Assembly (NCBI RefSeq): GCF_003086795.1
Contig: NZ_CP026003.1
Coordinates: 3,787,531-3,851,530 of the forward strand
Direction of reading: 5' to 3'
Origin: Stenotrophomonas sp. SAU14A_NAIMI4_5
GTDB lineage: Bacteria > Pseudomonadota > Gammaproteobacteria > Xanthomonadales > Xanthomonadaceae
DNA: 64,000 nt
Shown: piece after piece, positions 58,751 to 62,840 of the stretch
Position numbering within the stretch: position 1 is the first letter of the stretch
Layout of the letters: every line of letters begins with the position of its first letter
The notes under the pieces: model-generated
Database searches by the model: none
Seen by the model: the letters and a program-made list of their open reading frames with translations, nothing else
What the model was told of the DNA's origin: nothing
Made by a program: the position numbers and the translations under genes

Positions 58751-59236
58751 TCAGCGCCCGCGCTTGCCGAAACGCACGGCGTCGAGCAGCACGAACACCA
58801 GCGGCCACAGGCCCATGCCCAGCAGCGGTGCCCACCAGTACGACCACGGCAGGGTCGGTTCACCCACCAGGATGTGCACCAGCGCGCTGACGATGCGGTC
58901 ATTGAACAGCAGGCCGCCGATGGCCAGCATCTGCTGCGACATCGGGAAGAAACGGATGCGGGCGCGGAAGCGCTGCAGGATGAAGGCCAGCATCACCAGG
59001 CGCATGGCCTGTTCGCCGAGCACGCCGCCATACAGCAGGTCGGCGATGACGCCGCTGGTGAAGGCGATGCCCAGGCCCACGCGCTCGGGGGCCTCGATGA
59101 CCCAGTACGCCAGCACCAGCGCCAGCCAGTACGGGCGCAGCGGCTGCAGCAGCGCGGGCAGCGGCAGCAGGCCCAGCAGCAGGGCCACGACCAGGCTGGC
59201 CGGCAGCACCCAGGGGTTATCGCGCACGCGGCTCAT
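58751..59236 (-). CDS. mreD: rod-shape determining protein MreD
   Basis: 161 residues, five hydrophobic helices, with the MreD patterns ALVLAYWVIEAPERVGLG and FTSGVIADLLYGGVLGEQ. It anchors the elongasome in the membrane. It overlaps the end of mreC (ATGA). Confidence 0.93.
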   Translation of the reverse strand: MSRVRDNPWVLPASLVVALLLGLLPLPALLQPLRPYWLALVLAYWVIEAPERVGLGIAFTSGVIADLLYGGVLGEQAMRLVMLAFILQRFRARIRFFPMSQQMLAIGGLLFNDRIVSALVHILVGEPTLPWSYWWAPLLGMGLWPLVFVLLDAVRFGKRGR

Positions 59237-60282
59237 CGTGCGGGCTCCTGCGGGGTGGGTTGCGGTTGTTGTTGCGGTTGCCGGCCAGCGGCCGGCACTA
59301 CCGGGGAGCTGGCTGGGGCAGAGCCCCCCTCTTGTTGAGGGGGGCGCGCCGACGGCGCGGGGGTAAGGTGGGATGCCCCCCCGGCAGCCTGGTTTGCCAA
59401 AGGCAAACTTGGCTGAGGCAATTCGCCTGCCGCAGGCAAGCGAATTGCCGCACCCGGGCGCAGCAGCAGTACGTCGCGGCCGCGGTCGAGCTGGGCGGCA
59501 GGCTTCATTTCGCCCACCAGGAAGGCGTGGGTGTCGTCGGGGCGCAGCGCGGTGATGGTGCCGACCGGGAAGCCCGGCGGGAACCGCCCGCCCAGGCCGG
59601 AGGTGACGATCTCATCGCCCACTTCCACGCCCGCGCTCAACGGAATGTCGCGCAGCTGCAGGGTGTCGCCGCGGCCGTAGACGATCAGGCGCACGCCGTT
59701 GCGGGCCACGGTCACCGGCACCGCATGGTCCGGGTCGGTCAGCAGCAGCACGGTGGAGGTGCCACCGGTGGTGCTGATCACCTGCCCCATCAGGCCACCG
59801 GCATCGATCACCGCCTGGCCCACGTGCACGCCGTCGCGGCTGCCGGCATCGAGCACCAGGCGCTGCTTGACCGGGTCCAGGTCGATATCGAGGATCGGCG
59901 CCAGCTGCACGTCCAGGCCACTGCGCTCGGCCACGTTCAGCAGTTCGCGCAGCTGGGCGTTGTCCAGCGCGGCGGTCTGCAGGCGGGTCAGGCGCGCATT
60001 GGCCAGCAGCAGCTGGTTGCGCAGTTCGCGGGTCTCGGCCACCAGCTGGCCATGGCTGGCCGCGTTGTCGCGCACCTGGTTGCTGAGCTTGCCCGGCAGG
60101 CCGGCCAGCGCCCACACCGGCTGCACCAGCGTGTCGGCCTGGGCGCGCACGCGCGCCAGCCAACCGGCCTGGTCGTCCAGCACGATCAGGATGATGGCCA
60201 TGGCCAGGTAGGCGAGCAGTCGCAGCGGACTGGCGGCGTCACCGGATCGGGAGGCTACGGGAGGACCGGCGTAAGGCGGCAC
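59233..60282 (-). CDS. mreC: rod-shape determining protein MreC, with repeat-encoded tail
   Basis: 349 residues. A membrane helix (about 20-38: RLLAYLAMAIILIVLDD) and coiled coil precede the two-lobed beta domain (DPVKQRLVLDAGSRDGVHVG, then EVGDEIVTSGLGGRFPPGFP). The conserved part ends near residue 272. The remaining 70-odd residues are a low-complexity tail rich in Pro, Ala, Gln and Ser. Its codons (59233-59455) are largely made of palindromic repeats. MreC scaffolds PBP2 and RodA in the periplasm. Confidence 0.95.
   Translation of the reverse strand: MPPYAGPPVASRSGDAASPLRLLAYLAMAIILIVLDDQAGWLARVRAQADTLVQPVWALAGLPGKLSNQVRDNAASHGQLVAETRELRNQLLLANARLTRLQTAALDNAQLRELLNVAERSGLDVQLAPILDIDLDPVKQRLVLDAGSRDGVHVGQAVIDAGGLMGQVISTTGGTSTVLLLTDPDHAVPVTVARNGVRLIVYGRGDTLQLRDIPLSAGVEVGDEIVTSGLGGRFPPGFPVGTITALRPDDTHAFLVGEMKPAAQLDRGRDVLLLRPGAAIRLPAAGELPQPSLPLANQAAGGASHLTPAPSARPPQQEGGSAPASSPVVPAAGRQPQQQPQPTPQEPAR
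59279..59301. repeat. SMAG-type palindrome inside mreC
   Basis: TGCCGGCCAGCGGCCGGCAC plus CTAC, read in frame as part of the MreC tail (VVPAAGRQ). Confidence 0.88.
59321..59370. repeat. 50-bp two-hairpin repeat inside mreC
   Basis: GAGCCCCCCTCTTGTTGAGG opens the element; GCGCGCCGACGGCGCG is its second stem; GGGGTAAGGTG ends it. A second copy of equal length lies at 62689-62738 in inverse orientation. Confidence 0.88.
59392..59449. repeat. two further palindromes inside mreC
   Basis: GTTTGCC AAA GGCAAAC (59392-59408) and GGCAATTCGC with its inverse GCGAATTGCC (59417-59449) encode the first part of the MreC tail. Confidence 0.85.
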
Positions 60283-61730: not shown

Positions 61731-62669
61731 ATGTCCGCTCTGATCTGTGGTTCTCTTGCCTTCGACACCATCATGGTGTTCCCGGACCAGTTCAAGAATC
61801 ACATCCTCCCGGACAAGGTGCACATCCTGAACGTGTCCTTCCTGGTCCCGCGCATGCGTCGCGAACTGGGCGGCTGCGCCGGCAACATCGCCTACAACCT
61901 GAAGCTGCTGGGCGGCAGCCCGATCCCAATGGGCACCGTCGGCCAGGATTTCGCTCCGTACCGTGAGCACTTCGAGCGCATGGACATCGACCTGAGCCAG
62001 GTCCGCGTGCTGGAAGACATGTTCACCCCGCAGTGCTTCATCACCACCGACCACGACAACAACCAGATCACCGCGTTCCATCCGGGCGCGATGATGCGTT
62101 CGCACGAGAACCACGTGAAGGACGTGCCGGGCGTCACTTTCGGCATCGTTGCGCCGGACGGCCGTGACGGCATGATCCAGAACGCGGCCGAGTTCCTGGA
62201 ATGCGGCATCCCCTTCATCTTCGACCCGGGCCAGGCGCTGCCGCTGTTCAACGGCCCGGAGCTGCGCGATTTCATCGAGCAGGCCGACTACGTGGTGGTC
62301 AACGACTACGAGTCGAACCTGCTGCAGGAACGCACCGGCTGGGACGAGAAGCAGATCGTGAGCCGGGTGAAGGCCTACATCACCACCCGTGGCCCGAAGG
62401 GCGCGGTCATCCACACCCCGGAAAAGAGCTACGACATCCCGCCGGCGCACGAGCGCCGCGTGGTCGACCCGACCGGTTGTGGCGACGCCTTCCGCGCCGG
62501 CCTGATCTACGGCATCGAGAAGGGCTACGACTGGCTGACCATCGGCCGCATGGCCAACCTGATGGGCGCGCTGAAGGTCGAGCACCCGGGCACGCAGAAC
62601 CAGCGCTTCACGTTTGAAGAGTTCCACGACCAGTTCAAGCAGCAATTTGGCTACGCACTCGGCGCGTAA
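61731..62669 (+). CDS. PfkB-family carbohydrate/adenosine kinase
   Basis: 312 residues from ATG 61731 (MSALICGSLAFDTIM). The PfkB signatures are clear: ELGGCAGNIAYNLKLLGG near the N-terminus and DPTGCGDAFRAG, the anion hole with the catalytic Asp, near residue 255. The sequence resembles the adenosine kinase/sugar kinase branch more than fructokinase. Adenosine or a ribonucleoside is the most likely substrate; this cannot be settled from sequence alone. Confidence 0.9.
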   Translation: MSALICGSLAFDTIMVFPDQFKNHILPDKVHILNVSFLVPRMRRELGGCAGNIAYNLKLLGGSPIPMGTVGQDFAPYREHFERMDIDLSQVRVLEDMFTPQCFITTDHDNNQITAFHPGAMMRSHENHVKDVPGVTFGIVAPDGRDGMIQNAAEFLECGIPFIFDPGQALPLFNGPELRDFIEQADYVVVNDYESNLLQERTGWDEKQIVSRVKAYITTRGPKGAVIHTPEKSYDIPPAHERRVVDPTGCGDAFRAGLIYGIEKGYDWLTIGRMANLMGALKVEHPGTQNQRFTFEEFHDQFKQQFGYALGA

Positions 62670-62688
62670 CCAAATTGCCCGCGCATTT

Positions 62689-62738
62689 CACCTTATCCCC
62701 GCGCCTTCGGCGCGCCCCCTTGAACAACAAGGGGGCTC
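62689..62738. repeat. 50-bp two-hairpin repeat, second copy
   Basis: CACCTTATCCCCGCGCC opens it; the stems are CGCGCC TTC GGCGCG and CCCCCTTG AACAA CAAGGGGG. It is homologous to 59321-59370 in inverse orientation, with a paired change in the second stem. Confidence 0.88.
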
Positions 62739-62769
62739 TCCACCCGACGCGTTATCTCGACCTGCCCTG

Positions 62770-62840
62770 GTAGGTGTCGACCTTGGTCGACACTGCCGGC
62801 CAGCGGCCGGCACTACCCGCCGGGCATGGCCCGGCGCTAC
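62770..62840. repeat. three SMAG-type palindromes
   Basis: GTAGGTGTCGACCTTGGTCG (62770-62793), TGCCGGCCAGCGGCCGGCAC with CTAC (to 62816) and GGGCATGGCCCGGCGCTAC (to 62840). The last one supplies the TAG stop (62839-62837) of the HAD gene. Confidence 0.88.

Follow-up and report, generated by a model that had tools for sequence, protein, structure and literature searches.

How do repeats of an intergenic type come to encode the end of MreC? The question is raised by the mreC gene in a stretch of 64,000 nt from Stenotrophomonas sp. SAU14A_NAIMI4_5, below called the window. There are several possible answers. The mreC stop codon could have been lost, so that translation ran into intergenic repeats, as proposed in an earlier reading of the sequence alone (the sequence-only reading); the tail could be an annotation artefact and remain untranslated; the repeats could be kept for the hairpin or for the peptide they encode; or they could have entered an already existing tail and be tolerated there.

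The mreC gene and its junction with mreD

MreB-like and MreD-like frames flank mreC in the window, and relatives of mreD were found beside mreC by tblastn. The main features are as follows.

59233..60282, minus strand: mreC, with the GTG start as listed
residues 133-274 of MreC: PF04085 barrel (139.6 bits, cut-off 28)
59233..59457, minus strand: MreC tail, residues 276-349 and the stop; disorder judged by composition
58751..59236, minus strand: mreD, its ATG overlapping the TGA of mreC (ATGA)
59245..59249, minus strand: AGGAG inside the mreC end, the likely Shine-Dalgarno sequence of mreD, read from sequence

The ATG at 60201 (codon 28) is the mreC start according to our own gene caller and to some database entries (322 aa). 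The end of the barrel, placed near residue 272 by the sequence-only reading, agrees well with the PF04085 match, which stops at residue 274. For five of six solved MreC sequences the match ends at query residue 248-276, and for the sixth, 7eft, it extends to query residue 349. The tail is rich in Pro and Ala and, judging by composition, probably disordered: in the genus loci the share of bulky hydrophobic residues is 0.11 in tails vs 0.34 in cores, the disorder-promoting share is 0.88, and the composition is of the same kind in tails with and without REPs.

Repeats encoding the tail

The last 74 codons of MreC, beyond residue 275, run through four elements (P33, P17, E50 and a SMAG), all of them in frame. 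Two further copies lie nearby.

59417..59449, minus strand: P33, coding 33-bp palindrome GGCAATTCGCTTGCCTGCGGCAGGCGAATTGCC; single copy in the sampled 28% of the genome
59392..59408, minus strand: P17, coding 17-bp hairpin GTTTGCCTTTGGCAAAC; single copy in the sampled genome
within 59315..59376, minus strand: E50, coding two-hairpin element of about 60 bp; five other places in the genome
59279..59301, minus strand: SMAG (GTAG-REP), coding, peptide VVPAAGRQ; 23/23 to the published consensus
62683..62744, plus strand: intergenic E50 twin, located downstream of a gene that ends at 62669
62794..62816, minus strand: perfect SMAG, intergenic

The SMAG consensus, as given in PMC2613905, is GTAGTGCCGGCCGCTGGCCGGCA (23 bases). 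E50 at 59315-59376 is 84% complementary to 62683-62744 across 62 nt, and the window contains six other perfect SMAG copies. The sequence-only reading had given the same elements in the same order at the same coordinates, and this description holds. Its statement that they are intergenic elsewhere is true of the SMAG and of E50; for P33 and P17 it had to be dropped, as no second copy of either was found within the 1.264 Mb sampled (28% of the genome).

E50 is dispersed at low copy number and has two hairpins; at the threshold used it occupies six places in the genome. Two of the five places outside mreC fall in the sampled part of the genome and are intergenic by crude gene calls; one further place follows a tRNA, and the places L259 and L260 lie outside the gene calls. 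In the window, Rfam gave no matches at the gathering score between 58000 and 63500, hence none for E50, and in the fetched neighbourhoods of L259 and L261 only two tRNAs reached this score. A fixed unit of E50 and SMAG was ruled out, as the spacing differs at the other E50 places. The mreC E50 copies of L006 and L020 end in GTAG on the other strand, and hence E50 may be a REP-like family of its own.

Tagged REPs were observed in 51 of 90 genus tails and in none of the 90 cores, with a mean of 0.9 per 90 (maximum 4) in codon-shuffled tails. The coding repeats in the tail are not a chance occurrence.

SMAGs in the rest of the genome

At up to three mismatches the genome contains 279 SMAGs (reversed-pattern control, 0). 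The sample of 1.264 Mb, in which 1063 genes were called crudely by a simple hexamer model, includes 79 SMAGs: 74 intergenic, 3 at gene edges and 2 inside genes by these calls. One of the two is in mreC. The other (G000:C1:1284714) is perfect and antisense, 7 codons before the stop of a called gene of 260 residues, and the next gene on the same strand starts 3 nt after this stop. Thus, with an overlap at mreC and a 3-nt gap at the other gene, both in-gene SMAGs occupy gene 3' ends with no intergenic room. Same-strand neighbours overlapping by 1-20 nt number 148 in the sample. A loose hairpin search placed 33 of 525 hits inside genes; three of these look like clear REPs by eye, namely the mreC one and two located 7 and 3 codons before a stop.

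A replication-strand bias of SMAGs was considered and dropped, as the strands are approximately equal in the sampled blocks (S1: 10/11, 14/13, 9/11). Six Y1_Tnp loci score above the cut-off in the genome (RAYT-like candidates); one of them, G000:C1:3856997-3857290, is situated about 5.5 kb past the window end.

The mreC stop codon in relatives with and without repeats

MreC was located in all 91 genus genomes, and 90 loci were analysed (G055, with an incomplete gene, was dropped). The mreC TGA and the mreD ATG overlap in an ATGA junction at 88 of the 89 genus loci where mreD was mapped; the sole exception, L085, is frameshifted in the tail, and L063 stops at a contig edge. In L085 (genome G002) the tail is out of frame with mreD and continues for 378 codons, due to either a real frameshift or a sequencing error. 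The 108 further loci, many of them named records of the same genomes, also include Xanthomonas and others. Among these, mreD was mapped in 105 and is in frame in all 105 (offset -3 in 100, -9 in 4, -6 in 1).

The same stop is shared by REP-free relatives and by Xanthomonas, and therefore the proposal that the mreC stop was lost and translation ran into intergenic repeats has to be abandoned. REPs do occur near stops elsewhere, one sampled SMAG being 7 codons from a stop, and still we consider stop loss highly improbable. REP-free tails (30 of the 88 genus loci compared) are of the same kind in composition; as tails exist both with and without a REP and are alike in composition, the repeats entered a pre-existing tail. 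MreC of this family already had a low-complexity tail before the repeats came. The sequence-only reading had regarded a similar tail sequence in genera without these repeats as evidence against itself; the tails found there are alike in kind and different in sequence.

That the tail is an artefact of annotation and untranslated is hardly credible either, since 88 of 89 loci retain an open frame in phase even where segments have been inserted or duplicated, and long forms of MreC are annotated in database entries. The variation in annotated MreC length is suggested to be real, rather than an error of gene calling.

Tail turnover within Stenotrophomonas

The tree was built from DNA of the mreC core and mreD by a quick method, with 28 of 87 inner branches supported below 80. 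One clade (71 loci, support 100) carries a SMAG-class REP in 58 loci, and none of the 19 loci outside it has one. DNA of intergenic repeat type, as the sequence-only reading proposed, indeed encodes the MreC tail, and it is absent from relatives outside this clade. In 56 of the 58 loci the REP is intact or nearly so (at most one mismatch in variable pairs), and in two it is decayed; the 13 clade loci without a REP include L063, which is cut off by the contig end. The tree requires at least 11 changes in REP presence and 14 in subtype. These are explained most simply by a single entry of a REP into the tail, followed by losses, duplications and subtype swaps. The type of the tail head changes 17 times and E50 changes 19 times (rough counts, with L026 and L036 scored as "other" and L064 doubtful).

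Tail length in the genus ranges from 32 to 183 residues (88 loci, L085 and L063 left out). The best 120 of 3958 database hits contain 52 distinct cores, and 33 of the same 120 share an identical core of 275 residues, their tails being 67-140 residues long. In S. cyclobalanopsidis (L009/L091), which stands nearest on the tree (fork support 81), the core is 99-100% identical and the tail has neither a palindrome head nor E50. Of the six REPs in the L013 tail, five form a 33-nt tandem, and a coding tandem array in the L049 tail mixes subtypes in the order S1, S2, S2, S2, S1.

With a wider detector, 79 copies were forward and in frame 0, and 5 were reverse: three SMAG-like copies in L069 and L071, and two that are E50 itself. 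Given these five, the statement that all REPs are forward and in frame 0 (80/80 by a narrower detector) is too strong. Orientation is not independent evidence, as the forward copies probably stem from one entry and duplications. The reverse SMAG-like REPs of L069 and L071 are read as ADGQRPSLP and lie beside a forward REP. In the tails of L004, L015, L020 and L043, 35-bp palindromes (GGCAAC...GTTGCC) begin inside the SMAG 3' end, and hence two hairpins compete for the same bases; the stems of these palindromes vary between species and stay paired.

A different repeat in Xanthomonas

In Xanthomonas, mreC tails commonly start and end with inverted arms of the GGGAATC heptamer and its variants. 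This heptamer is described in PMC4692102 as a G-quadruplex repeat of Xanthomonas, 89-93% intergenic in two genomes. The arms beat all shuffles in 18 of 27 Xanthomonas loci and are absent from three (L139, L154, L156). The heptamer pattern with one mismatch has 42-218 hits per genome in four genomes of the g18 group (overlapping tandem hits counted) and none in the genome of the window or in G133. We take g18 as Xanthomonas because the L186 tail equals that of the named Xanthomonas L146.

In 13 of 27 Xanthomonas loci, exactly 28 nt separate the 3' end of the repeat from the end of the mreC stop; the terminal REP lies at this same distance in 29 of 56 Stenotrophomonas loci, and in the window the distance is 46 nt. 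The 28-nt boundary lies 24 nt upstream of the mreD ATG, and 24 nt is approximately the reach of an initiating ribosome. The boundary may thus be the edge of the mreD start region. As related species share it by descent, it counts as approximately two events.

Selected hairpin or tolerated passenger

Folding z-scores were obtained with 40 shuffles in three of five groups and with 20 in the other two, Xanthomonas being represented by 12 of 27 loci. We observed z < -2 in 36 of 58 tails with a REP; the REP-free values are 1/12 inside the clade, 3/18 outside it and 1/10 in other members of the family. The REP-free tails show no replacement hairpin, and hence a required hairpin is unlikely, although the hairpin may be selected without being required. 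In Xanthomonas the median whole-tail z is -4.2, with z < -2 in 11/12 loci; since the last 120 nt show no excess (z < -2 in 1/12), there is no local hairpin in Xanthomonas and the structure is long-range.

Most REPs in mreC are well preserved. All seven inner stem positions are paired in 76 of 88 copies, with one mismatch in 11 and two in 1 (this count leaves out 8 chance-like hits; codon-shuffled tails yield a mean of 3.0 hits, maximum 9), and 52 of 56 terminal REPs are perfect. At four-fold sites, 20 loci that share both the common subtype and its position diverge by 0.028 in the REP vs 0.189 in the core, a difference to be read with the grouping by subtype and the search pattern in mind, both of which bias the REP value downwards. 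Only 1 of 268 core windows is as conserved as the REP in these 20 loci; for the other subtype (7 loci) the count is 65 of 268. In G026 the mreC copy is the only genome match to its subtype pattern, and four others, at 2-3 mismatches, largely keep the stems or the tag. Outside the clade, L080, L081, L083 and L087 come from genomes with 434-561 copies of one subtype and have none in mreC; as such REP-rich genomes carry none there, the mreC spot is not a general sink for REPs. Intactness alone does not prove a local role, because REPs elsewhere keep their stems too.

Under selection for the hairpin, a REP located directly upstream of the mreD start would act on the mRNA in the way of intercistronic REPs elsewhere, protecting the mreBC mRNA or damping mreD translation, and Xanthomonas would have converged on this with its inverted heptamers. 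Stem pairing does survive subtype changes, of which there are at least 14 on the tree: over 34 distinct REP forms, 91.9% of cells pair, five pairs change on both sides (reached by 1/500 shuffles), and covariation is 0.257 vs 0.100 in shuffled data (0/500), given that the forms are related, that the finder requires at least 5/7 pairs and that the pair-type count is not above the shuffles (346/500). The mostly intact copies, the G026 copy, the -28 boundary common to two genera and the whole-tail structure in Xanthomonas are consistent with selection as well. Against it, 13 of 71 clade members (L063, cut off, among them) lack the REP, and the genomes of REP-free L017, L039 and L044 contain 368, 186 and 128 copies of the main subtype. 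Excess structure in only one of the 12 REP-free clade tails, and its near absence from the last 120 nt in Xanthomonas, argue in the same direction. Subtype swaps can also arise by recombination with other REPs, as described for SMAG loci in PMC2613905, REP stems are kept elsewhere too, and the -28 boundary may be the edge of the mreD start region, each genus amounting to about one event. We therefore regard a selected hairpin as doubtful, though second in rank after tolerance.

Still less probable is selection on the peptide, which might for example serve the elongasome or cell wall as spacer or contact. Nearly every family member seen retains a tail, and the median open frame, measured from stop to stop and hence not a gene length, is 376.5 in the 90 genus loci and 367 in 135 other family members vs 301 in 101 class members outside the family. 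However, no conserved motif was seen outside the repeats and the mreD start region, tail length varies twofold with identical cores, subtype swaps alter the peptide (VVPAAGRQ, VVPGSARQ, VVPSHARQ), and the matches to solved MreC sequences mostly end before the tail or at its first residue, 7eft excepted.

The tail as a probable translated spacer

The preferred reading, with a probability of about two in three, is that the MreC tail is a translated spacer, that is, intergenic space inside a gene. The ATGA overlap of mreC and mreD leaves the operon no non-coding gap at this point, and the only unconstrained DNA would be the stretch that follows the MreC barrel and precedes the mreD start region. 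Because the mreC stop lies inside the mreD start, this spacer must be read in frame; being Pro/Ala-rich and probably disordered, the tail would tolerate almost any open sequence. SMAG-class REPs and E50 in Stenotrophomonas, and GGGAATC heptamers in Xanthomonas, would have entered the spacer and persisted, with repeats duplicating by whole codons, swapping subtype and getting lost, while selection would hold the frame, the barrel and the mreD start region. Tolerance rather than benefit would then account for the repeats, and recombination between them would presumably drive the turnover of the tail.

The repeats are in frame, the stop/start overlap is kept in 88 of 89 genus loci, and a variable tail stands beside a conserved core, with another repeat in the sister genus. 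The translated spacer is also favoured by the restriction of REPs to one clade, the like composition of tails with and without them, the avoidance of genes by SMAGs, with both exceptions at 3' ends without room, the dispersed heptamer in Xanthomonas tails, the -28 repeat end found in both genera and the little excess structure in REP-free tails. The intactness and low four-fold divergence of most mreC REPs speak against it, as a neutral passenger that old should have decayed more, and so do the G026 copy, which is alone in fitting its subtype pattern, and the REP-rich genomes outside the clade with none in mreC. We also put forward, tentatively and as rather unlikely, a coding intergenic region in genes that overlap their neighbour. 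The disordered tail would hold a repeat structure closely upstream of the next start, and in mreC the GTAG-REPs of Stenotrophomonas and the inverted heptamers of Xanthomonas would alike adjust the balance of MreBC with MreD and the downstream wall enzymes, the peptide being a by-product.

Discussion of disordered tails in bacterial proteins usually centres on peptide function. Here, in an essential cell-shape protein of Stenotrophomonas, a floppy end often encoded by repeats of intergenic type varies strongly among close relatives and the remainder hardly at all, which suggests that a tail can be shaped by DNA-level events, as the only free space in a packed operon. The 33 proteins with identical cores form a natural series for questions about REP hairpins and tail tolerance.

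Comparison with known systems

In-frame intragenic REPs have been described in several species including S. maltophilia, with clusters encoding 43-82 residues (Di Nocera et al. 2013, PMC3733652). The mreC case is similar to these GTAG/CGTC REPs in that they lie in frame inside genes. The cases presented there are specific to a species and fall in varied genes, whereas here a single gene is involved throughout a clade, at a stop/start overlap, where tail length turns over even among close relatives; the sister genus adds a second repeat family. The main text of PMC3733652 does not name mreC (its supplementary gene list may do so), nor do those of PMC3686654 and PMC4692102, and our literature search for mreC together with REPs found no paper.

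Rickettsia palindromic elements, as summarized in PMC3733652, are in frame in genes likely encoding functional proteins, and some are expressed; they occur in many genes and have a CGTC tag, unlike the GTAG REPs of mreC, which occupy one low-complexity tail beside an overlapping gene. According to PMC2613905, the SMAG repeat number differs between strains, and related families can replace SMAGs; arrays at 12 loci are used there for strain typing. The array in mreC consists of coding sequence, and its changes come in whole codons. The heptamer is the same as in the GGGAATC repeats of PMC4692102, but in mreC it is coding and forms long inverted arms.

REPs that are intercistronic or proximal to a stop act on translation or mRNA stability (PMC12306157, citing Newbury 1987 and Liang 2015). 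Those considered in PMC12306157 lie downstream of a stop, while the predicted mreC hairpin precedes the next start and is itself part of the upstream coding sequence; common to both is a hairpin near a gene boundary. As far as our searches go, what is new at mreC is the conjunction: a gene of an essential pathway, a clade-wide coding REP at a stop/start overlap, its turnover, and a parallel in the sister genus.
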